Origin: Planobispora longispora
Lineage (GTDB): Bacteria > Actinomycetota > Actinomycetes > Streptosporangiales > Streptosporangiaceae
Direction: 5' to 3'
NCBI RefSeq assembly: GCF_016863135.1
Contig: NZ_BOOH01000016.1
Span: 1-64,000, forward strand
Length of the DNA: 64,000 nt
Made by a program: the position numbers and the translations under genes. The notes below the pieces were generated by a model. That model did no database searches. It had not been told where the DNA came from and saw nothing but the letters and a program-made list of their open reading frames with translations. Positions 164-16,568 of this stretch are shown piece after piece. How positions within the stretch are numbered: position 1 is the first letter of the stretch; each line of letters opens with the position of its first letter.

Positions 164-1009
164 TCAGCGGAGCCGGTACTCCTCCCAGGTGCGGATGGTC
201 ACCTTCGGGCCGTCGTCCGGGCCGCGGCCGGCGAGCCCGTTCAGACCGAGGTAGTAGTCACCGACCTGGTGCTGGGCCTGGCTGGAGAGGTCGGTGTCGC
301 TGATGGCGGCGGCGTGGATGTGCCATGGCCAGTCGCCCTGACGGGGGTTACGCGTCCATGCCGCGAAGCCGACGCTTCGCAACGCGCGGACGGCCGCGGC
401 GCGGGTGGCGGGGTTCATCCCCTCGACCGAGATGTCGACGACGCCCCCGCCGTCATGGGTGCCTGCGGACGTGGGATCGCCGCCGGGGTTGTACGACCCC
501 TGCAACAGCACGAGGTTCCGGCCGAGCAGCCGCTTCGCCTCGGCCAGCATGCTCCGCGTGCGGGTGTTGACGACGACGCCCCCGGTGGACACCCGGGCGC
601 CCGGGGTGATGATGCGGGTGACCCTGAAGCGGCCGGCTCCGAGCTTGGTGAGCGATGCCTTGCCCGGCAGGCCGTTGGCGGCGGACCTGGTGTAGCCGAG
701 CGACTTCTGGAACTTCGCGTAGGCGGTGACCGTCGTGCTGCCGAAGTAACCGTCGACCCACTTCGCGTCGAGCAGGCGCCGGTCACGCAGCGCCTGCTCG
801 ACGAGGAGCACGCTGGCCTCGGCGCCCGGGGTCAGCGTCTCGTCAGACCGCCGCGGGTCGATCTGGGCCGCCTTGACGGTGGCTTCCATGTTCACGGTCG
901 GAAGGGCCCTCGCGTCGGACGCCTGTGCCGCCGACATCCCGGACGCTCCGGTCAGGCAAGCGACCAGAGCGGCCGCTGTGAGGCCAGTTGCGCATGAGGC
1001 CGGCTTCAT
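164..1009 (-). CDS. Secreted peptidoglycan-binding protein with M15-like metallopeptidase motifs
   Basis: The protein has 281 residues. Residues 1-30 are a Sec signal peptide. Residues 64-125 look like a peptidoglycan_binding_1 three-helix repeat (YFGSTTVTAYAKFQKSLG). The C-terminal half carries GTHDGGGVVDI (183-193) and WPWHIH (227-232). Their spacing recalls the HxxGxAxD and WxWH zinc ligands of D,D-carboxypeptidases of the VanX/VanY (M15) type, with H185, D192 and H230 or H232 as candidate ligands. It probably acts on peptidoglycan outside the cell. The ATG at 1009 is chosen because GGGAGA precedes it and it opens the signal peptide; upstream in-frame starts would add an arginine-rich stretch. 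Catalysis is inferred, not shown. Confidence 0.8.
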   Translation of the reverse strand: MKPASCATGLTAAALVACLTGASGMSAAQASDARALPTVNMEATVKAAQIDPRRSDETLTPGAEASVLLVEQALRDRRLLDAKWVDGYFGSTTVTAYAKFQKSLGYTRSAANGLPGKASLTKLGAGRFRVTRIITPGARVSTGGVVVNTRTRSMLAEAKRLLGRNLVLLQGSYNPGGDPTSAGTHDGGGVVDISVEGMNPATRAAAVRALRSVGFAAWTRNPRQGDWPWHIHAAAISDTDLSSQAQHQVGDYYLGLNGLAGRGPDDGPKVTIRTWEEYRLR

Positions 1010-1172
1010 CGTTTCTCCCGCTTTCGGATGCTGTGAGTGGTTCCTGCAGCGGGGTTCACGCTTCCGGGTTTGTTCATGCGTCCGCAAGAAAATCCTGTTG
1101 TCAGCCTGTTCAGCGGGCTTCCTTACAGGCGGACACGCCGTCTTACAGGTCGTCCGACGGCGAACGAGACGC

Positions 1173-1270
1173 ACAGGCCACGACTACACGGGCGGCGTTC
1201 TGACAGGCGCGACCGTACAGGCGGCGTTCGCACAGGCCGCGACCGTACGGGTGGCGTTCTGACAGACCGG
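1173..1270. repeat. Tandem repeat, about 30 bp, three units plus a partial
   Basis: Imperfect copies start at 1173, 1203 and 1232, and a fourth partial copy at 1262. The shared core is ACAGGC-CGAC-GTAC-GG-GGCGTTC. The array sits in the 437-bp intergenic region between the divergent secreted-protein gene and the clpP pair, about 100 bp upstream of the palindromic operators. I see no coding potential in it. Confidence 0.7.
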
Positions 1271-1374
1271 CATCACCGAGCCGGCCGCGTCCATGGCCGG
1301 CGCTTCCGCACCTTGGCTCTCCTGGTCCCCGGTCACCGCCGCAATGCTGCGAACCGGGCCGGAAACCGAGTTCC

Positions 1375-1391
1375 ATCTGCTCAGAGCAGAT
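1375..1391. promoter_or_regulatory. Palindromic operator 1 upstream of the clpP pair (PopR-box-like)
   Basis: A perfect 8-1-8 inverted repeat: ATCTGCTC, A, GAGCAGAT. It lies 56 bp upstream of the clpP3-like start. PopR of Streptomyces lividans is known to activate clpP3-clpP4 through palindromes of TCTGCC type, and this half site shares TCTGC. It overlaps the neighbouring palindrome by three bases. Confidence 0.65.
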
Positions 1392-1407
1392 CTGCCCCAG
1401 GCAGATC
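1389..1407. promoter_or_regulatory. Palindromic operator 2 upstream of the clpP pair (PopR-box-like)
   Basis: A perfect 8-3-8 inverted repeat, GATCTGCC-CCA-GGCAGATC. The TCTGCC-N3-GGCAGA core agrees with the PopR box I recall for the Streptomyces clpP3-clpP4 promoter. It lies 39 bp upstream of the ATG of the first clpP gene, so an activator here would sit close to the RNA polymerase site. Confidence 0.7.
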
Positions 1408-1446
1408 GTGTCGACGCCGGTCCGGATCGCCTCACATGATGGGCGT

Positions 1447-2073
1447 ATGAGCGGAGAATCAAATATTCCACTGTTCAATGAGCGGGTGAGGCGCGAGCTC
1501 TACGACCAGCGTGTCCTCGTTCTCGACGGCCCTCTCGATGACGACAACGGGACACTTCTGGCCACGCAGCTCATGGCACTCGCCACGCAGGACGCGTCGA
1601 CGGACATCGCATTGTGGATTCACTCGCCGGGCGGGTCGGTTCCCTCGATGCTCGCGATCCGCGACATCATTCGACTCATTCCCTGTGACGTGTCGACCCT
1701 CGTGCTGGGCATCGCTTACAGCGCCGGACAATTCCTGCTGTCATCGGGGGCCCGAGGGAAACGCCGCGCCCTGCCGCACGCACGTGTCCTGATGCACCAG
1801 GGCTCGGCGGGGATCGCCGGCACCGCAGTCGACATCGAACTGCAGGCCGGCGACCTCCGGCATACTCGCGACACGGTGCTCGGCCTCATCGCCGAGGACA
1901 CGGGGCAGCCCGTCGAGCGCATATTCGAGGACTCCCTGCACGATCGCTGGTACACGGCACGAGAGGCACTGGACTACGGCTTCATAGATGCAATCGTGCA
2001 AAATTTCGACGAAATCGCGCCGCGCAACCGCCCGCGGCTCGGATTCGGCATCACCGAAGGAGCCGACCAGTGA
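1447..2073 (+). CDS. clpP3: ClpP-type serine protease subunit with complete triad (ClpP3-like)
   Basis: This 208-residue protein covers a whole ClpP subunit (peptidase family S14). The triad aligns as S92 (GIAYSAGQ), H117 (RVLMHQ) and D166 (HDRW), and the oxyanion/strand motif HSPGGSV is intact, so it should be catalytically competent. ClpP rings assemble as tetradecamers with an AAA+ unfoldase (ClpC or ClpX). The start at 1447 keeps both operators upstream of the gene; a GTG at 1408 would abut operator 2. It overlaps the next gene by GTGA, indicating a translationally coupled pair. The symbol rests on the operon plus the PopR-like regulator; these genes are distinct from the housekeeping clpP1-clpP2, which are not in the window. 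Confidence 0.9.
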   Translation: MSGESNIPLFNERVRRELYDQRVLVLDGPLDDDNGTLLATQLMALATQDASTDIALWIHSPGGSVPSMLAIRDIIRLIPCDVSTLVLGIAYSAGQFLLSSGARGKRRALPHARVLMHQGSAGIAGTAVDIELQAGDLRHTRDTVLGLIAEDTGQPVERIFEDSLHDRWYTAREALDYGFIDAIVQNFDEIAPRNRPRLGFGITEGADQ

Positions 2074-2660
2074 GCACATATACGATTCCGAATGTCATCA
2101 CTCAGAATTCCCGCGGCGAGCGGATCATGGATGTCTACTCGCACCTTCTCACCGAGCGGATCATCTATCTGGGCACCGCGATCGACGCGGGCGTCGCGAA
2201 CGCGCTCATCGCGCAGCTGATTTTTCTGGAGTCGGACAACCCCGAGGCCGAAATACAGTTCTACATCAACTGTGAAGGCGGGGATCCGAGTGCGATGCTC
2301 GCGATATATGACACCATGCGCTACATCCGCCCGCGGGTTTCGACGACCTGCGTCGGACAGGCCGTCGCGGTGGGCGCCGTCCTTCTCGCCGCGGGTGCCG
2401 AAGGAAAGCGTGCCGCTCTCCCGCACGCACGAGTGATCCTGCATCAACCAGCTGCTCAGGGACGCGGAACGATCCCCGATCTCATCTTGCAAGCCGACGA
2501 GGTCGTGCGTGTCCGAGCAGACATCGAGCGCATCCTGTCACGGCACACCGGCCAGACGGTCGAGACTCTACGCGCCGACACCGATCACGATCGCGTGTTC
2601 ACCGCGACCGCGGCCTTGGAGTACGGACTCCTCGATCAGATCATCGAGGAGCGTTCATAG
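2070..2660 (+). CDS. clpP4: ClpP-like subunit lacking the catalytic serine (ClpP4-like)
   Basis: The protein has 196 residues with full-length ClpP homology. In the active-site loop VGQAVAVGAVLLAAG the residue aligned with the nucleophile is A100 (codon GCG at 2367-2369). H125 (RVILHQ) and D174 (DHDR) are kept. The conserved PGGS loop is changed to EGGDPS. It should therefore not hydrolyse peptides itself but could pair with the ClpP3-like subunit, as the plant and cyanobacterial ClpR subunits do. It starts at GTG 2070, overlapping the previous stop, with GAAGGAG upstream. Whether other actinobacterial ClpP4 proteins share this change cannot be told from the window. Confidence 0.9.
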   Translation: MSTYTIPNVITQNSRGERIMDVYSHLLTERIIYLGTAIDAGVANALIAQLIFLESDNPEAEIQFYINCEGGDPSAMLAIYDTMRYIRPRVSTTCVGQAVAVGAVLLAAGAEGKRAALPHARVILHQPAAQGRGTIPDLILQADEVVRVRADIERILSRHTGQTVETLRADTDHDRVFTATAALEYGLLDQIIEERS

Positions 2661-2687
2661 GCCAGTGGATGATCCCCGCAAGCCGCG

Positions 2688-3044
2688 CTACGCGGCCAGA
2701 GCATACGCCGCCGAGCAGGTGGCGCCTCTCGACGCGCTGCTCTGAGCGGACCTCAAGCTCTCGGCGACGGCAAGGGTCAGATCGACCAGGGTCACATCCA
2801 GCGCGCCGGCGACCGCGGCGATCATTTCGCTCGACGGCTCCTTGACGCCCCGTTCCATCTCGGAGAGATACTGCGGCGAGACTCCGGCGCGCCGCGCCGT
2901 CTCGGTCAGCTTCTCGCCCCGCTCGTGACGAAGGTCTCTGAGACACTCACCGAGCGCGTGCCGCCACAGCGGCTCGCGAGCCGGAGACGACTTGGGGCCG
3001 GTCCGATCGATCGCTGGACGTAGCGGCGGGCGAGAAGAGGCCAT
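2688..3044 (-). CDS. popR: XRE-family regulator with ssrA-like C-terminal degron (PopR/ClgR-like)
   Basis: The protein has 118 residues. A Cro/C1 helix-turn-helix spans about residues 33-88, with RRAGVSPQYLSEMERGVKEP as turn and recognition helix; this sequence is of the ClgR/PopR type that controls Clp protease genes in actinobacteria. The chain ends in SAAYALAA, whose last five residues equal those of the E. coli ssrA tag. In Streptomyces PopR is known to be degraded by ClpP1P2 through C-terminal alanines, so the regulator accumulates only when the main protease fails. It is convergent with the clpP pair, 27 nt from its stop. The likely targets are the palindromes at 1375-1407. Confidence 0.85.
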   Translation of the reverse strand: MASSRPPLRPAIDRTGPKSSPAREPLWRHALGECLRDLRHERGEKLTETARRAGVSPQYLSEMERGVKEPSSEMIAAVAGALDVTLVDLTLAVAESLRSAQSSASRGATCSAAYALAA

Positions 3045-3179
3045 GCTTCACTTTAGGTAGACGGCGCGTTCGAGTTCAGTCGGATCCGCGCAGAGCGGAA
3101 TCGCCCACCGGCTGTCGTGGTGCGCCGCCTTGCCCGGTCAGATGAGAGCCTTTCGGATCACCTGCCGGGTGTACGGCGA

Positions 3180-3446
3180 TCACGACCGTCGATGCATGAT
3201 GGTCAGCAGAATGCCGACCGGTGTCGTAATCGCCATCAATGCCAGACAGAGCAACGCATCCACGCGGATGTTCATGTGGGGCAGGTAGGTCATGATGTAC
3301 CACTGATCGAAGGCGGCGAGAAGCCAAGCCGCGGCTGGCAGCAACAGGTAGTAGGAGCGTCGCGTGCGGCGTAGCGCCAGGAAGAGACCCACGAAGATCA
3401 ACCCGCCGAGGGTCAGGGAGACCAGGTACAGCGTCGCTGCGCTCAT
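3180..3446 (-). CDS. Small membrane protein, three predicted transmembrane helices
   Basis: An 88-residue protein that I do not recognise. Hydrophobic spans lie at about residues 5-24, 31-49 and 62-84, separated by an RRTRRS loop. It ends in HRRS. There is no signal peptide and no known domain. It lies 135 nt downstream of the popR-like gene on the same strand, though the gap is wide enough for its own promoter. The AT-richer codons compared with the oriC genes fit an accessory region. Confidence 0.6.
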   Translation of the reverse strand: MSAATLYLVSLTLGGLIFVGLFLALRRTRRSYYLLLPAAAWLLAAFDQWYIMTYLPHMNIRVDALLCLALMAITTPVGILLTIMHRRS

Positions 3447-3699
3447 ATGGTCGCTTCCGTTCTGTTAGATCAATCTGAAGCCACACCAGTGCAGGCTGTA
3501 GTCGGCTCCCCACGCAGGGATCGGGAAGCTTTGGGACGGTAGTCACAACGGTGCTTGTAAACCGCCAGTTCAGCCCATCCGGGCTCCCCCTTGCACCCGC
3601 CACCAGCAGGAAGAACACCTTCGCTGGCTGAGGTGACGCAAGGGCGCAACCGGCTGCGAGGTCCCCTTCGAGGAGGAAGCGGAGGGTACGCTCGCAAGA

Positions 3700-4122
3700 T
3701 TGAGCGGGAACGAGTCATGCGGGGCGGATGTGTCTGCTCGTGATCGCCGGTTGGCGCGCGGAGCGTCCTGGCCGTTGACCCGGACGGATCTGGGTGAGGC
3801 TCTCGGGGAGGACTTCCAGCATGTGCGGGAGCTGGAGTTCTCGGGCGGGGTGCCGCAGGACTGGGTCCTGGCGGTCAGATGGCGTCCGGGGCGCGCGGGC
3901 GGCATGCATCCGCAGGTCTACGGAATCGCCCTGTCGGTTCATCCCGTCCGTTCAGCGGACCGAGCTGAGATCCGGGAGGCGCTGCGCAAGGACGTCCTGC
4001 CAGAGTTGCGCAGCTGGATCACTCAAGCGGTGACGGCTCCCGAGACATGGACGACCGCCTCCCACTGGTTGGGGTGGCAGTGGACGGAGCGCCGGGTGTT
4101 CGAGTCGGAAGAGACGTCATGA
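3700..4122 (+). CDS. Hypothetical protein
   Basis: Up to 140 residues with no family that I recognise. It is soluble, mixed alpha/beta in appearance, with Trp-rich segments (DWVLAVRWRP near residue 53 and HWLGWQWTERR near 122). The start is uncertain: TTG at 3700 gives the longest frame, while GTG at 3730 would also work. It ends about 110 bp before a recombinase remnant, so it may belong to a decayed integrative element. Confidence 0.5.
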   Translation: MSGNESCGADVSARDRRLARGASWPLTRTDLGEALGEDFQHVRELEFSGGVPQDWVLAVRWRPGRAGGMHPQVYGIALSVHPVRSADRAEIREALRKDVLPELRSWITQAVTAPETWTTASHWLGWQWTERRVFESEETS

Positions 4123-4230
4123 GAGCTCCGGCTGCGGGGAGCGGTCGAAGCCGTTGGCGGAGCGGCTGTGCGGGCAGCGTCGCGGACTTCGATGCGGCGG
4201 GTTGATCGGGTACGACGCAGACAAGTGGCG

Positions 4231-4358
4231 GTGATCTATCAGCACTCCACCCACGATCGACAGCCAGAGGTTGCCCGCAAGCTCGGCGACCTCGCCTGTG
4301 GGCACTCGGGAAGCGATCGATCCCGCAACGGGCACGGAAGCCGGACGAGGCCGAATGA
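4231..4358 (+). pseudogene. Tyrosine recombinase C-terminal remnant
   Basis: The translation VIYQHSTHDRQPEVARKL matches the last catalytic motif (tyrosine in YQHS) and tail of the recombinase at 5807-6529. A single-base deletion in the stretch corresponding to ARGALG shifts the frame relative to that intact copy; read across the shift, both copies end in the same GAGGCCGAATGA. Everything upstream of the tyrosine motif is missing. This is the tail of a dead integrase gene next to a duplicated attachment site. Confidence 0.8.
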
Positions 4359-4460
4359 AGACCAAAGTCCAGGTGAGGCTACCGTTCCTGACCTGGGCTT
4401 TTCATCTCCTGAGGGCGATGGGGTCTAGAAGATCCGAACTCCTGACACCCTGCTTGCAAA
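4231..4460. repeat. Direct repeat A: integrase tail, terminator and tRNA-Ala 3' half (matches 6401-6632)
   Basis: The segment is about 80 percent identical to 6401-6632, in the same order and orientation: recombinase tail, terminator-like hairpin with the ACCTGGG arm, then the tRNA-Ala 3' half. The last 42 bases (4419-4460) correspond to the tRNA from the anticodon loop to the discriminator base, with a few substitutions. The two copies are offset by about 2170 bp. This is the footprint expected of tandem or repeated integration at the tRNA-Ala 3' end followed by decay. Confidence 0.75.
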
Positions 4461-4700
4461 CCGATTCGATCTTGGACCGTACGGACCGCGAGCTGGGCGG
4501 AGGACTCCCCGCGGGTGACCGTGACTGACCGCTTTTGACCGCCCATAACGGCCCTCTAATGACCCAACGATCGCAAGGCGCCCACTGCTGCCATAAGAGC
4601 CTCATCACTCTGTCGGTTAGAAGGACTCTGTGCCCTACGAACCCGATGATCTTCCCGGCGCCTGGTATCAACTTGGAGATCAAGGGCGACGGCGTGAAGC

Positions 4701-4946
4701 TTAGCGGCGTTGTCCCTGCTCGCGAAGCGCCACCTCCAGGCGTAATCCAAGTCCGATCAGCGCTGTGAACCACAGGCCCACGAGCCATGGCCACGACGGG
4801 AAGTCACCGTCGAAGAGCAGGATGCCGAAGGACAGAACCATGCCGCCGACCAATGCAGTAGAGCCCAGAGTGCGGACAAATACAACGTGGTCGTCGGGCT
4901 CGGGGCCAGGAATGTAGGGAGGCGGGGTCTCTGTAGGCTCAGTCAC
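4701..4946 (-). CDS. Small membrane protein, two predicted transmembrane helices
   Basis: An 81-residue protein of unknown function. The N-terminus is proline-rich and cytosolic-looking (TEPTETPPPYIPGPEPDD), followed by hydrophobic spans at about residues 27-45 and 52-71 and a short basic tail (REQGQRR). It lies inside the segment bounded by the two tRNA-Ala-related repeats and so was probably carried by the mobile element. Confidence 0.55.
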   Translation of the reverse strand: MTEPTETPPPYIPGPEPDDHVVFVRTLGSTALVGGMVLSFGILLFDGDFPSWPWLVGLWFTALIGLGLRLEVALREQGQRR

Positions 4947-4959
4947 GCTGGAGAGAATC

Positions 4960-5292
4960 TCATGGTGGATCTAATGAACAAAACCACTCATCTGCCTTGA
5001 CTTTTCCCCGCCCGGTCTTCCCATCCGTTTCTGTCGCAGTACGCGTCCGCCAGCTTCCGCCATCCCCGGACAGCCGGATGTCGAACCGGATCTCGTCATC
5101 GGGCCTTTCGGGCCACAGGGACGACCAGACCACGAGTTCCGGCTCCACCGCCCGGAGGACGCGCGGCTCGACTTCATCGGGGCGCAGGTCCAGCCACTGC
5201 CGTCCACCAGGTCGCCGCGGGTCGGTCAGACTCTCCCACACGATACGAGGGGGCGGCGGCTGCGTACGCTCTCGCGAACCCAGTTCGATCAT
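4960..5292 (-). pseudogene. SRPBCC-like protein, probably truncated or frameshifted at its C-terminus
   Basis: The first 75 or so residues (IVWESLTDPRRPGG, LRPDEVEPRVL, LVVWSSLWPERPDD, IRFDIR) resemble a short actinobacterial protein family with an SRPBCC-type fold. After SGDGG, where I would expect a continuing beta strand, the translation becomes a low-homology basic tail ending WFCSLDPP. This suggests a frameshift or deletion near 5050. It lies in the mobile-element remnant. A functional short variant remains possible. Confidence 0.5.
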
Positions 5293-5372
5293 TTCCGCAG
5301 TCTAGAAGGCGACCGTCACACGGTCGCCGTCCACCGGTTCGGAAGACTTGGACGCTCGGCCTGCTGATCTGC

Positions 5373-5645
5373 TTACGGCTCTACATATTCGTTCGAGCGA
5401 TCATCTCGGAGCCGAGCATCCCCGCCGGAGGCAGAGCCTTCGTTCTTGAACCGCTCGATCAGTACAGCTGCGATGAGGGAAAGCGTTCCGATGACCCCGC
5501 ACAGGGCTATGGCGATCCCCATCCCTGCCCAGCGGATCACTGCCGCTGTTGGTGCTGTCTCTCCGGGAACGTTCATCGCCATGTACATCATGCTGAGGGC
5601 CATAAAAAAGAAGCCACCGTAGGGGAGGAACCTGAAGCGATCCAT
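5373..5645 (-). CDS. Small membrane protein, two predicted transmembrane helices
   Basis: Started at ATG 5645 the protein has 90 residues: hydrophobic spans at about 8-24 and 38-62 and a charged tail with Asp/Arg-rich GGDARLRDDRSNE. No family recognised. The frame stays open upstream to 5804, but that extension looks non-coding and no good ribosome site supports either start. It lies within the recombinase-bearing remnant. Confidence 0.45.
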   Translation of the reverse strand: MDRFRFLPYGGFFFMALSMMYMAMNVPGETAPTAAVIRWAGMGIAIALCGVIGTLSLIAAVLIERFKNEGSASGGDARLRDDRSNEYVEP

Positions 5646-5806
5646 GGCGATTGATCTTAGGAACCCCGGCGTGAGGGGCGATAGAGCTTCATAGGTGGTC
5701 AGCACAACGGCCGGCGCCGACCCGAAGGACGCCATAGGCGCCGCGTAGCGGTCGGGGCCGGTGGTCGGAGCGACCGTGCGGGTGGCGGCGCGACGCGCCG
5801 CCACCC

Positions 5807-6529
5807 TTGACCGTTGTGGATGACCAGCTCACCAAGCGGAACCCCTGCCGGATCAAGGGTGCTGGTCAGAAGAAGTCACCGGAGCGTCCGGTGCTCACGG
5901 TCGCCGAGGTCTACAAGATCGCCGACGCGATCGAACCGCGTTACCGGGCACTGGTACTCCTGGCGACCTTCGGCAGTCTGCGGTGGGGCGAGCTGGCCGG
6001 CCTCCAGCGCCGAGACCTCGACCTGGACGCCGGAACCGTGCGGGTGCAACGCCAGTTGATGCAGATCACCGGCAAGGGCCTCGTCTTCACCGAACCCAAG
6101 TCCGCGGCAGGCAGGCGAACGGTGGTGATCCCCGAACTGATCATCGAGGACCTGCGGGAGCACGTGAAGGACTTCACCCAGGACGGGGACAAGGGACTGA
6201 TCTTCGCCGGCCCGGATGACGGTCCACTCCGCAACACCAACTTCAACCGCCGCGTCTGGACGCAGGCTCTCCAGGACACCGGCCTTCCGAAGATCCACTT
6301 TCACGACCTCCGGCACACCGGCAACACCCTCGCCGCGAGCGCCGGGGCGTCGATCCGGGAGCTGATGGAGCGCATGGGCCACTCCAGCACGCGCGCCGCG
6401 ATGATCTATCAGCACTCGACGGACGAGCGGCAACGAGAGGTCGCCCGCAAGCTCGACGGCCTCGCCCGTGGGGCACTCGGGGAGCGATCGGGCACGCAAC
6501 GGGCACGGGAGCCGGACGAGGCCGAATGA
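5807..6529 (+). pseudogene. int: N-terminally truncated phage-type tyrosine recombinase (integrase)
   Basis: 240 residues holding the complete catalytic domain: R59 (SLRWGEL), K98 (TEPKSAAGRR), H166-R169 (HDLRH), H192 (MGHSS) and nucleophile Y201 (MIYQHS). Full-length relatives have roughly 150 more N-terminal residues (arm-binding and core-binding domains); here homology begins abruptly at VVDDQL, near the junction with unrelated DNA at about 5805, and only a TTG is available as start. It reads toward the tRNA-Ala gene, the usual layout for pSAM2-like elements. A catalytic fragment without the core-binding domain is unlikely to integrate DNA. Confidence 0.8.
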
Positions 6530-6632
6530 AGATCAAAACCCAGGTGAGGCGACCATGCCTGACCTGGGCTTCTTCATGTCGTGAGAGCGGTGGAGCCTAG
6601 GAGATTCGAACTCCTGACATCCTGCTTGCAAA
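6401..6632. repeat. Direct repeat B: integrase tail, terminator and tRNA-Ala 3' half (matches 4231-4460)
   Basis: Second copy of the repeat described at 4231-4460, here joined to the complete tRNA-Ala gene. The 3' half of the tRNA (6591-6632) is the presumed attachment core. Confidence 0.75.
6539..6568. terminator. Bidirectional hairpin terminator between int and tRNA-Ala
   Basis: Arms CCCAGGTGAGGC and GCCTGACCTGGG with one internal mismatch and a six-base loop. On the minus strand it is followed by TTTTGATC, so it would end tRNA-Ala transcription; on the plus strand GCTTCTTC follows, ending int. A diverged copy is present at about 4369-4400. Confidence 0.65.
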
Positions 6633-6663
6633 GCAGGCGCTCTGCCAACTGAGCTAAGGCCCC
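6591..6663 (-). tRNA. tRNA-Ala (anticodon TGC)
   Basis: 73 nt with a standard cloverleaf: acceptor GGGGCCT paired with AGGCTCC, including the G3-U70 wobble that specifies alanine, D arm AGCTCAGTTGGCAGAGC, anticodon stem CCTGC/GCAGG with loop TTTGCAA, T loop TTCGAAT, discriminator A, no encoded CCA. Its 3' half is the presumed attachment site of the neighbouring integrative element and is duplicated at 4419-4460. In actinobacteria this tRNA commonly sits near gyrA and the DLW-39 gene. Confidence 0.97.
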
Positions 6664-14231: not shown

Positions 14232-15095
14232 ATGAAGATCCTGGTCACCGGGGCGACGGGGTTCGTCGGCCGGAACGTGGTCACGCAGCTTCTCCAGGCG
14301 GGAGTGGAGGTCCGCGCGCTGACCCGGAACCCGGCGAAGGCGAACCTGCCCGAGACGGTGGAGGTCGTGCGAGGCGATCTGACCGACCTCTCGACGGTCG
14401 CCCCCGCGCTGGAGGGCGTCACCGCGATGTACCTCTTCCCCGTCGAGGAGACCGCGCGCGAGGTCGTCGCGCTGGCCGGGCAGGCCGGGGTACGGCGGAT
14501 CGTGGACCTGTCGGCCGCGTCCGTCACCGCCGGCCTGCACACCAACCCGGTGGAGCAGGCCGTGGAGGAGTCGGGACTGCAGTGGACGCACGTGCGGCCC
14601 TGCGGGTTCATGGCCAACATGCTGCAGATCTGGGCGCCCTCCGTCCGCGCCGAGCGCGTCGTGCGCTACCCCTTCGCGGACGATCCGATGAACCTCATCC
14701 ACGAGGCCGACATCGCCGCCGTCGCCGTCGCCGCCCTGCTGGAGGACGGCCACCACGGCGCGGCGTACACGCTCACCGGGCCGGCGCTGGTCACGGTGCG
14801 CGAGCAGGTCCGGGCCATCGGCGAGGCCCTGGGCGAGGAGGTCCGCTACGAGGAGGTCACCCGCGAGCGGGCCCGGGAGCTCATGAAGGCCCAGGGCGGC
14901 TTCGCCGCCGAGAGCGCCGACCTGATGCTGGGCTTCACCGACTACGGCGGCGAGGCGGCCTCGGGCGAGGACGGCTACTCCGACCAGGACTGGTCGGTGC
15001 TGATGCGGCCCTGGCCCGACGTGGAGAAGGTCACCGGCCGGCCCGCCCGCACCTACGCGGAATGGGCCCGCGACCACATCGAGGACTTCCGCTGA
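14232..15095 (+). CDS. NAD(P)-binding NmrA-like/SDR-type protein
   Basis: 287 residues of the atypical short-chain dehydrogenase group. The Rossmann loop is VTGATGFVGRNVV (residues 5-17), RNPAKA follows strand 2 and favours NADPH, and HVRPCGFMANML is characteristic of NmrA-like proteins, which often lack the YxxxK pair and may act as redox sensors or reductases on quinone-type substrates. AAGGAGGAAG precedes the ATG. Divergent from the WYL regulator gene. Confidence 0.9.
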   Translation: MKILVTGATGFVGRNVVTQLLQAGVEVRALTRNPAKANLPETVEVVRGDLTDLSTVAPALEGVTAMYLFPVEETAREVVALAGQAGVRRIVDLSAASVTAGLHTNPVEQAVEESGLQWTHVRPCGFMANMLQIWAPSVRAERVVRYPFADDPMNLIHEADIAAVAVAALLEDGHHGAAYTLTGPALVTVREQVRAIGEALGEEVRYEEVTRERARELMKAQGGFAAESADLMLGFTDYGGEAASGEDGYSDQDWSVLMRPWPDVEKVTGRPARTYAEWARDHIEDFR

Positions 15096-15213
15096 CGACG
15101 CCCCGATCGCCGGGCCGGCCGGGGCGTCCGGCGATCTGCCGGTTCGTCGGACCGGAGGCGACGGCCCGCGCCAACACCAAGGTCGGTTGCGAGGCCTGAC
15201 CGGAGCACCGATG

Positions 15214-15246
15214 AAAGGCCCCGTACGACATGCCGTGCGGGGCCTT
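15214..15246. terminator. Hairpin terminator after the NmrA-like gene
   Basis: Arms AAGGCCCCGTACG and CGTGCGGGGCCTT (one G-U pair) with a six-base loop, followed by TCTCC on the plus strand and preceded by a short run giving TTTCAT on the minus strand. It lies 118 bp after the stop and isolates the following small transcription unit. Confidence 0.75.
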
Positions 15247-15334: not shown

Positions 15335-15363
15335 TTGGCATCCCGGCCGGGGCAATCTACTCT
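15335..15363 (+). promoter_or_regulatory. Candidate sigma-70-type promoter upstream of a 32-codon ORF and the tRNA array
   Basis: TTGGCA (15335-15340), a 17-bp spacer and TACTCT (15358-15363). Position, about 40 bp before a ribosome site and ATG, is good for a leadered transcript. It is a motif match only. Confidence 0.45.
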
Positions 15364-15403
15364 CTTTAATACAGGAACCGGACGACAGCGAGAAGGGCCG
15401 ACC

Positions 15404-15502
15404 ATGAACGCGTATGAAGCCGCCGCACTGCAGTGGTGCGGATCCGGCCTGCGCCGCGTTCCCGGTGCCGGCGGTCTCGCACCCCCCGAGGCGCCCGTGT
15501 GA
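15404..15502 (+). CDS. Possible 32-residue peptide gene upstream of the tRNA array
   Basis: The reading frame starts at ATG 15404 with AGAAGGG upstream and encodes MNAYEAAALQWCGSGLRRVP followed by a Gly/Ala/Pro-rich tail ending APPEAPV. The first half is helical and amphipathic. A promoter match precedes it and a GC-rich hairpin follows the stop by 16 nt. It could be a leader peptide, a small protein or chance. There is no run of a single amino acid, so classical attenuation is not evident. Confidence 0.35.
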   Translation: MNAYEAAALQWCGSGLRRVPGAGGLAPPEAPV

Positions 15503-15518
15503 CCATCCTTGCACGGTA

Positions 15519-15550
15519 GCCGCCCCGGGGAAGACCACCCGACGGGCGGC
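15519..15550. terminator. GC-rich hairpin following the 32-codon ORF
   Basis: Arms GCCGCCC and GGGCGGC separated by 18 bases, followed by TTCGTCGTTCC. It could be a weak terminator of the small ORF transcript or an attenuator ahead of the tRNA array that begins about 190 bp later. The 15551-15742 stretch between them shows no other gene. Confidence 0.45.
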
Positions 15551-15742
15551 TTCGTCGTTCCGGGGCGCAATCCGGGAACGTGCGGGATCGACACGGGTGC
15601 GCGCCACGGGCGGCGATCGGTCTCCGGGACCGGCGTATTCGAATTCGATCCCACCGCCCACGTGAATGCCTTTCCGCGCCCGCACGCGGAATAACCGGTC
15701 ATTCCCCTACGACAATTCAACAGCGAAATGCGCGTGTTTTAT

Positions 15743-15817
15743 CTCCGGGCTGATGGTGAAACGGCATCACGCCTGCCTTGCAAGCAGGAGTTCAGGGTTC
15801 GATTCCCTGTCTGTCCA
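15743..15817 (+). tRNA. tRNA-Ala-like gene (anticodon TGC) with an unpaired acceptor stem, likely pseudo
   Basis: D arm GATG/CATC, anticodon stem CCTGC/GCAGG with loop CTTGCAA, and T arm CAGGG-TTCGATT-CCCTG are all intact. The 3' acceptor strand TCTGTCC would need GGACAGA on the 5' side, but the DNA there reads CTCCGGG and does not pair. Either the 5' end was replaced or the gene is dead. First unit of the array. Confidence 0.6.
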
Positions 15818-15841
15818 CGGGGCGCCCCGTACGGCGCCCGC

Positions 15842-15913
15842 GCCGCAGAGGCCGAACCGGTAAGGCGGCTGGCTTCCACCCAGCAGGACGGGGTTCGAGT
15901 CCCCGCTGCGGCT
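15842..15913 (+). tRNA. tRNA-Gly-like (anticodon TCC)
   Basis: 72 nt. Acceptor GCCGCAG/CTGCGGC fully paired, 3-bp D stem GCC/GGC, anticodon stem GCTGG/CCAGC with loop CTTCCAC, T arm CGGGG-TTCGAGT-CCCCG, discriminator T as in bacterial tRNA-Gly, no CCA. The acceptor sequence differs from the usual GCGG start of bacterial tRNA-Gly. Confidence 0.75.
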
Positions 15914-16084
15914 CTGCCCTGAAAGGAGAGGGCACGGGTCCGAGACTCGGCGGCGGGAGTGGCGACCCCCGCCCGGTCGACGTCCCACACGCGTCCGTAC
16001 GGCCCACGCCACCCGGACCGGACGCGCGGTCACAGCTGGTCAGCACAGGAATCCGATGATCGATACGAATACGAATACGTGCGG

Positions 16085-16159
16085 TGCCGGATCGTCCAAT
16101 CGGCAGGACACCCGACTCTGGATCGGGGAACGGAGGTTCGATCCCTTCTCCGGCAGCCA
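16085..16159 (+). tRNA. tRNA-Gln (anticodon CTG), CCA encoded
   Basis: Acceptor TGCCGGA/TCCGGCA fully paired with the U1-A72, G2-C71 start typical of tRNA-Gln, anticodon stem CCCGA/TCGGG with loop CTCTGGA, T loop TTCGATC, discriminator G and encoded CCA (16157-16159). It is the only member of the array with CCA. The 171 bp before it contains no convincing further tRNA. Confidence 0.85.
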
Positions 16160-16167
16160 CACGACCC

Positions 16168-16239
16168 GTGGGTGAAGTGTCAGCGGAAGCACACGACCGT
16201 GCCGAGGTCGCAGGGCGGGTTCGAGTCCCGCCGCCCACT
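16168..16239 (+). tRNA. tRNA-Gly-like (anticodon GCC)
   Basis: 72 nt, 8 bp after the previous CCA. Acceptor GTGGGTG/CGCCCAC (one G-U), D stem GTG/CAC, anticodon stem CGACC/GGTCG with loop GTGCCGA, T arm GCGGG-TTCGAGT-CCCGC, discriminator T. The second acceptor pair is T-A, not the C-G that glycyl-tRNA synthetase usually prefers. Confidence 0.7.
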
Positions 16240-16240
16240 C

Positions 16241-16314
16241 GCCGCTCTGGCCCAACCGGGAGAGGCGCCGCGTTCAGAGCGCGGAGGTTCCGGGTTCGAA
16301 TCCCGGGAGCGGCA
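16241..16314 (+). tRNA. Class I tRNA with Leu-type anticodon CAG
   Basis: 74 nt, starting two bases after the preceding tRNA. Acceptor GCCGCTC/GAGCGGC fully paired, anticodon stem CCGCG/CGCGG with loop TTCAGAG (anticodon CAG, codon CUG), a 5-nt variable loop AGGTT, T arm CCGGG-TTCGAAT-CCCGG, discriminator A. Bacterial leucine tRNAs are class II with a long variable arm; this one is class I, so its amino acid cannot be inferred from the anticodon. Confidence 0.7.
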
Positions 16315-16361
16315 CGACGGTCGGAAGACGTCCGAGGACGTCGGAGGACACCGAAGACGAT

Positions 16362-16450
16362 GGAAGGCGTCCGGTCAGGTCGAGGAGCACCGTTGGAAGC
16401 GGTGTACGCGGCGGTGACGTCGCGGCCGGGTTCGAATCCCGGGCCTTCCG
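16362..16450 (+). tRNA. tRNA-Ser (anticodon GGA), class II
   Basis: 89 nt. Acceptor GGAAGGC/GCCTTCC fully paired, anticodon stem CACCG/CGGTG with loop TTGGAAG, long GC-rich variable arm (about 21 nt), T arm CCGGG-TTCGAAT-CCCGG, discriminator G as required for serine. Confidence 0.85.
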
Positions 16451-16455
16451 CGCAT

Positions 16456-16531
16456 GGCTCGTTGGTCTAGGCAGGTCCAGGACACCTGGTTCTCACCCAG
16501 GAGGACATCGGTTCGAATCCGATACGAGCTA
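16456..16531 (+). tRNA. tRNA-Glu-like (anticodon CTC)
   Basis: 76 nt, five bases after the tRNA-Ser. Acceptor GGCTCGT/ACGAGCT with a G1-U72 wobble, D stem GTC/GAC, anticodon stem CCTGG/CCAGG with loop TTCTCAC, T arm ATCGG-TTCGAAT-CCGAT, discriminator A followed by CC. Last clear member of the array. Confidence 0.8.
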
Positions 16532-16568
16532 CCGAGCACCGGGCGGTTCCGCCGGCCGGGTTCGACCC

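Follow-up and report, generated by a model that had tools for sequence, protein, structure and literature searches.

Control that responds to the charging of tRNA is known from T-box leaders. In Streptomyces lividans, attenuation by leader peptides has been described at alaL-alaS, thrL-thrS, trpL2-trpS and ilvL-ilvBHC (PMC8079986). Dense sets of redundant tRNA genes that spread horizontally, called tRNA array units, are found on mycobacterial plasmids, phages and chromosomes (PMC5966550, PMC6582537). The role of such redundant arrays is not clearly understood, and one study cited in that literature reported a deletion without phenotype (PMC5966550). A further described system is the HDV-like theta ribozyme, a structured RNA located directly 3' of tRNAs in phages (PMC10879173).

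In this work, we describe an array of seven tRNA genes in a window of 64,000 nucleotides from Planobispora longispora (contig NZ_BOOH01000016.1, positions 1 to 64,000), and we propose from comparison of related loci that it is an accessory tRNA operon under ribosome-mediated transcription attenuation, a reading to which we give a probability of about 0.72. As with the S. lividans leaders, which are likewise found in an actinomycete, a short, translated-looking leader containing residues of the regulated amino acids precedes the regulated genes (PMC8079986); unlike there, the terminator precedes tRNA genes, these belong to several isotypes, the leader mixes residues, and a structured RNA lies within the operon. 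The proposed response to tRNA charging is shared with T-box leaders, whereas the leader region here has no Rfam match and contains an ORF instead. The locus resembles the mycobacterial tRNA arrays in its dense, redundant genes and horizontal spread (PMC5966550, PMC6582537), and in having a tRNA-Leu with a short variable loop (PMC6582537). It differs in holding seven genes, against the 20 or more clustered genes that define a tRNA array unit (PMC5966550), in its fixed position near oriC, and in its leader and terminator, words that do not occur in PMC5966550. What sets the locus apart is the combination of a matched leader in front of a reduced accessory array and a structured RNA inside it. 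A search of the open-access literature returned no published leader-controlled tRNA operon, leaders being known for synthetase and biosynthesis genes, which is weak evidence of novelty.

All seven genes were recovered by ARAGORN on the plus strand between 15747 and 16533, with the anticodons given in the preliminary description of this DNA: tRNA-Ala(TGC) (15747..15818; Rfam 62.3 bits), tRNA-Gly(TCC) (15842..15914; 61.4 bits), tRNA-Gln(CTG) (16085..16159; 57.5 bits), tRNA-Gly(GCC) (16168..16240; 39.7 bits), the 75 nt class I tRNA-Leu(CAG) (16241..16315; 54.5 bits), the class II tRNA-Ser(GGA) (16362..16451) and tRNA-Glu(CTC) (16456..16533; 60.0 bits). Six of the seven exceed the gathering score of the Rfam tRNA model (39.7 to 62.3 bits, with Gly(GCC) as the minimum), while Ser(GGA) falls under the Rfam thresholds and leaves as its sole trace a tRNA-Sec match of 29.4 bits against a threshold of 47. 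The genes are separated in places by 0, 4 or 8 nt according to ARAGORN, and the T-loop TTCGA is unbroken in all of them. The reported breaks of identity rules are present, but they are less unusual than first described: the G1-U72 pair of Glu is ordinary, being shared by both of the remaining Glu(CTC) genes of the genome (L051), and the T2-A71 pair of Gly(GCC) is seen again at the equivalent genes in the arrays of relatives. The position near oriC was likewise confirmed, with gyrA/gyrB at 21.1-25.6 kb and dnaN and dnaA at 30.4-33.9 kb. The span covered by the preliminary description excluded the upstream leader region (15335-15559), and the conserved RNA of the Gly-Gln spacer (15915-16029) was not mentioned in it. 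A tRNA-Val(GAC) called by ARAGORN on the minus strand (15088-15180) is likely a false call, as it lacks Rfam support and touches the end of an NmrA-like gene.

The class I CAG gene, regarded initially as an anomaly, reads as a tRNA-Leu and would presumably be charged with leucine. Class I is the form of the genome's Leu(TAA), Leu(TAG) and Leu(CAA) genes (L052, L053 and L060), which measure 74-76 nt and have similar D arms and a short variable arm; no class II gene for these three anticodons was found in this genome. A class I Leu(TAA) query matched 79 of 100 relatives, some of the matches being partial, and the best 12 loci were all Leu(taa) genes of 74-75 nt. Miscoding of CUG by the class I CAG tRNA need not be invoked, since class I Leu(TAA) is widespread in relatives and a single LeuRS passes the family cut-off.

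The Planobispora genome yielded 64 tRNA matches, and ARAGORN applied to the fetched loci found another gene elsewhere in the genome for each of the seven array anticodons. This rules out a sole-copy housekeeping role, the finding that the preliminary description had named as counting against its view. That view, of a compact mixed array of atypical and redundant tRNAs of the plasmid and phage kind, is upheld by colinearity with arrays of relatives and of a plasmid. The gene order is a 7/7 colinear subset of a 25-tRNA stretch in another genome (G032, locus L011), and 6/6 shared genes are colinear both with a 30-tRNA array elsewhere in P. siamensis (L076, 2322-11278), which is the second array of that genome, and with a 35-tRNA array on a Nonomuraea plasmid (L081), which opens with Trp and Ala(GGC). 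Colinearity with arrays of 25, 30 and 35 tRNAs suggests that the seven genes are a reduced relative of such arrays. Shorter versions adjoin the same AEC transporter gene in P. takensis, P. rosea and the genome G060. The neighbourhood is preserved in P. rosea as far as gyrA, and the Glu, Ser and Gln genes are missing at the corresponding site; the Ser and Glu genes are absent from the array site in all five aligned relatives, so that genes have been lost between relatives. Compared with these five, the tRNAs that are present are 88-99% identical and the spacer RNA 82-92%, against 22-55% for the two long spacers and 61-86% for the two short ones (the Ala and Gly columns of G018 were excluded as misaligned, because that genome lacks Gly(TCC)). 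The difference between 88-99% in the tRNAs and 22-55% in the long spacers argues that the array is kept by selection. The tRNA set thus appears old and retained, with losses, and the array reads as a reduced accessory array, left over from a larger one of the mobile type and maintained close to oriC within the genus. A mobile element at the site was rejected, as no integrase occurs among the scanned neighbours at 7-25 kb and the neighbours are conserved in P. rosea. Elsewhere in the window, positions 164-6663 look like the end of a prophage, with an integrase (5807-6529) beside a housekeeping tRNA-Ala(TGC) (6589-6663), endolysin-like and repressor-like proteins and two ClpP genes (1408-2660).

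Upstream of the array, beyond a hairpin terminator of the preceding gene (15215-15246), lies a series of elements on the plus strand. A promoter-like TTGGCA-17 nt-TACTCT (15335..15363) is aligned and conserved upstream in eight relatives; a stricter scan for a sigma-70 consensus listed no promoter there. It is followed by a Shine-Dalgarno sequence AGAAGGG (15391..15397) and by a leader ORF of 32 codons (15404..15502), which would encode MNAYEAAALQWCGSGLRRVPGAGGLAPPEAPV. The ORF is conserved in eight genomes with 31-34 codons and all three stop codons in use, and 69 of its 145 single-change codons are synonymous, compared with 42 expected. The stop codon is enclosed in a predicted hairpin (15495..15516) that reads CCGTG/CACGG here and CCATG/CATGG in P. 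rosea, and next to it stands a GC-rich, terminator-like hairpin, GCCGCCCCGGG...CCCGACGGGCGGC, with a T-containing tail (15518..15559). The tail is weak in T, and a terminator scan requiring 5 T in 8 did not list this hairpin; the GC-rich hairpin also occurs in relatives, and a T-run is present in the group of loci designated g4 and in others. In g4, a promoter at least 180 nt upstream was found at 35 loci and a script found an ORF in 34 of them; after three were dropped as wrong picks, the 31 leaders gave 185 synonymous among 464 single-change codons against 142 expected, from sequence pairs that are not independent. The first tRNA of the array starts 245 nt past the leader stop, and a separate promoter for the tRNAs is possible because of this distance. 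A conserved block, GACAATTCAACAG, precedes the first tRNA (15711..15723, plus strand). This block or its variant GACAATTC stands about 20-36 nt ahead of the first tRNA and occurs also in L082 and L072, where it seems too near the tRNA to be a -35 box.

The same arrangement was sought with a pattern made of the leader end, the stop codon and the terminator, with no tRNA letters. It gave five matches in 338 family genomes and none with a reversed control, and at all five an ORF is in frame and tRNAs follow 9, 18, 21, 28 and 43 nt downstream. Three of the five are loci or leaders already known when the pattern was drawn, and two are new: a Pro-Met-Gly operon with the leader MNTMPKRGTQPGQGPMSRQASG, and an Ala-Gly-Gly operon with a leader of 60 residues, Ala and Gly accounting for 27 of the 59 that follow the start. 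The pattern is specific but misses most leaders, that of the window included. A slightly wider version matched 0 of 394 genomes class-wide, and the leader pattern in this form may be restricted to the family. Promoter, leader ORF, stop-codon hairpin and terminator-like hairpin form the predicted layout of the majority of the family's accessory tRNA operons that were examined, and the full arrays L081, L076 and L011 are also preceded by leaders; the leader of a further locus, L201 (G330:C2), has a peptide identical to that of the Nonomuraea plasmid array L081. No leader with a terminator was found at G246, G234 and G052, the leader of G180 is not intact, and five plasmid loci (from Mycobacterium, Pseudarthrobacter, Tsukamurella and two from Streptomyces), three of which hold 1-3 tRNAs, have no clear leader.

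The evidence that carries the proposed regulation is the correspondence between leader residues and tRNA isotypes. It was examined in 14 operons with limited isotype sets, which were redealt among the leaders, so that a composition bias shared by the leaders cannot help; the leaders were chosen by eye and by script after the first cases had been seen, some of the operons are related to one another, and the G665 leader was read from a shorter start whose Shine-Dalgarno sequence is poor. The content of own-isotype residues lies above the mean of the other leaders in 14/14 operons, and the mean log-ratio was reached by 0 of 200,000 permutations. Every isotype of an operon occurs in its own leader in the 14 operons, which 19 of 200,000 permutations equalled. 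With the last five leader residues removed, the counts were 0/200,000 for the log-ratio and 1 for presence; with one operon per isotype set the count was 0/100,000, and with the nine operons outside the Planobispora group, g4, g6 and N. gerenzanensis it was 2/100,000. Four chromosomal operons matched by the pattern gave 4089/100,000, the true pairing being the best of 24. All 13 residues tested are commoner in leaders whose operon has the respective tRNA, internal Met at 7/80 versus 2/326. Examples are the leaders of a Leu-Leu operon (MSYEARQEQAGGLLLVLVLRQRRSPAE), a Leu-Met-Arg operon (MKFETIMRRRMRRILLMPRQASG) and a Trp-Met-Pro-Gly-Pro-Gln-Ile operon (MESGRMQRSQPAWPVPMRIPGVPAPIGAEAGSRFQAAG); an operon of two Leu tRNAs in G028, found after the test, has the leader MGTCEASILGAALPGGLALLGPAG. 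In g4, Pro makes up 15.2% of the leaders of operons with a Pro tRNA (25 leaders) versus 9.6% where there is none (6). The match of the window leader taken alone is weak, 0.61 versus 0.58.

In relatives, the leaders are rich in the amino acids of the downstream tRNAs, so a shortage of those tRNAs is probably what turns the spare set on. During smooth translation, the ribosome would reach the stop codon, transcription would end at the terminator, and the spare tRNAs would stay off. Scarcity of one operon tRNA, whether uncharged, cleaved or lost, would stall the ribosome on the leader; the stalled ribosome would prevent termination, and RNA polymerase would continue into the back-up tRNAs. In minimum-energy folds with the ribosome-covered part masked, the terminator stays in the stalled states of 6/6 leaders and is partly weakened in one state of L154; under this equilibrium folding, which yields neither an antiterminator nor a clean switch, it is lost only in the ribosome-free fold of the window. 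A link to translation stress, one of the ideas put forward in the preliminary description, is now the best supported of them.

In whiB7/wblC-type genes, upstream ORFs sense a general slowing of translation, and the leaders here might do the same, responding for example to ribosome-targeting antibiotics and not to the shortage of a particular tRNA. The stop-codon hairpin and the terminator would suit any translation-coupled attenuator of this sort, but the agreement of leader residues with isotypes is not predicted by it, and we regard this explanation as unlikely. It is quite unlikely, too, that the ORF and its terminator make up an independent gene for a small protein, with the tRNAs transcribed from another promoter. 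Such an arrangement would fit the approximately 200 nt between terminator and first tRNA in the window and close relatives, with their conserved GACAATT block; against it, this distance is just 9-43 nt at the five pattern matches, the layout accompanies tRNA operons in differing gene surroundings, and leader residues match the isotypes.

Another reading is that the array has no special regulation, being either a horizontally acquired remnant in decay or simply a means of raising dosage for common codons. Colinearity with full mobile-type arrays and the loss of genes between relatives agree with such an origin, as does, for dosage, the observation that 5/7 genes read the codon used most often for their amino acid across 46 window ORFs. 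The conservation of the tRNAs and the spacer RNA above the long spacers and a terminator-like hairpin ahead of the array, which speaks against steady high expression, nevertheless make this very improbable. A supply of tRNAs to a tRNA-dependent biosynthetic pathway, suggested earlier from their redundancy and unusual features, did not gain support and is hardly credible: gene content varies between relatives, the intact T-loops resemble those of translating tRNAs, and a Pfam scan of 37 of the 53 window ORFs taken as genes, together with three alternative frames, revealed no domain of the cyclodipeptide synthase, lantibiotic dehydratase or Fem type. P. rosea is a thiopeptide producer (PMC8269224) whose version of this site has no Glu, Ser or Gln gene. 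In that species, 53 of 63 tRNAs rank within the top 119 expressed genes, a figure given without naming the array tRNAs (PMC8269224).

The spacer between Gly(TCC) and Gln contains a predicted structured RNA of about 115 nt (15915..16029, plus strand) with hairpins at 15915-15934, 15946-15976 and 15991-16025. In a DNA search with this spacer, matches at E<=0.01 were obtained in 167 of 297 family genomes; among the best 25 (E up to 5.4e-6), 24 have a tRNA just upstream and one is a short match without a tRNA (L110). A sequence-only alignment of 22 of these 24 copies, two with an insertion being excluded, has 97.8% of its cells able to pair and 10 pairs that change on both sides; its covariation score was reached by 0/500 shuffles and collapsed in slid versions. 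A covariance model then placed the RNA in 70 of 341 family genomes and 10 of 68 genera, and class-wide in 8 of 394 genomes, all 8 belonging to the family, with about nine candidates scored per genome. The 71 copies fitted to the model, an alignment that leans to the model, show 17 pairs changing on both sides (0/500 shuffles). The support comes from covariation, as the minimum energy is no better than that of shuffles (z 0.17). A loop TGGCG (15960-15964) is able to pair with CGCCA (16007-16011), in 69/70 distinct rows; since these loops hardly vary, the contact is a guess.

Like theta ribozymes, the RNA lies directly 3' of a tRNA, but the ribozyme is a nested double pseudoknot with 5'-end cleavage (PMC10879173), whereas the consensus here consists of predicted hairpins and the one possible loop-loop contact. 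It also differs in its distribution: plasmid and phage records gave no match at E<=0.01, viral contigs no exact pattern, and the mobile arrays L081, L082, L076 and L011 no match. Rfam 15 has no family that overlaps it, at a cut-off of E<=1 for the window and of E<=2 for five other copies. In 47/71 copies a tRNA lies upstream within 160 nt, the distance being -1 to 4 nt in 44 of them, and in 43/71 one lies downstream within 200 nt, with a distance of 0 to 4 nt in 32. The RNA would be set free when the tRNAs flanking it are processed. No tRNA was recognised just upstream in 24/71 copies, and 15/71 have one on neither side, suggesting that the RNA can persist without recognised tRNAs. A promoter-like GTGGCR-N18/19-TACCGT occurs within 400 nt upstream of 47/71 copies, compared with 5 of 2921 background windows that were 130 nt long. 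This motif was drawn from the same loci, and in g4 it is post hoc, because the spacer was widened after inspection; a narrower first version matched 1 of 12 g4 loci. Copies without recognised tRNA neighbours include L161, L162, L164, L167-L169, L172 and L175-L177, most of which have the promoter-like motif 33-97 nt upstream. At tRNA-less copies, the RNA may be a stand-alone gene. A riboswitch for a downstream gene was rejected, as the genes that follow are diverse and often on the opposite strand.

Taken more broadly, it seems somewhat better than an even bet that in Streptosporangiaceae the accessory tRNA operons, whether chromosomal or, in at least one case, carried by a plasmid, serve as insurance sets that tune themselves: the leader peptide would consist of residues matching the tRNAs under its control, and a shortage of any one of these would turn on the entire set, along with a structured RNA from a new family that acts in stressed translation. 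If this is true, such arrays would be off in normal growth and on when the tRNAs of the host fail, as they might under attack by toxins that cut tRNA or when amino acids are short. Attenuation would then extend from amino acid and synthetase genes to the tRNA genes themselves, and one RNA family would be added.
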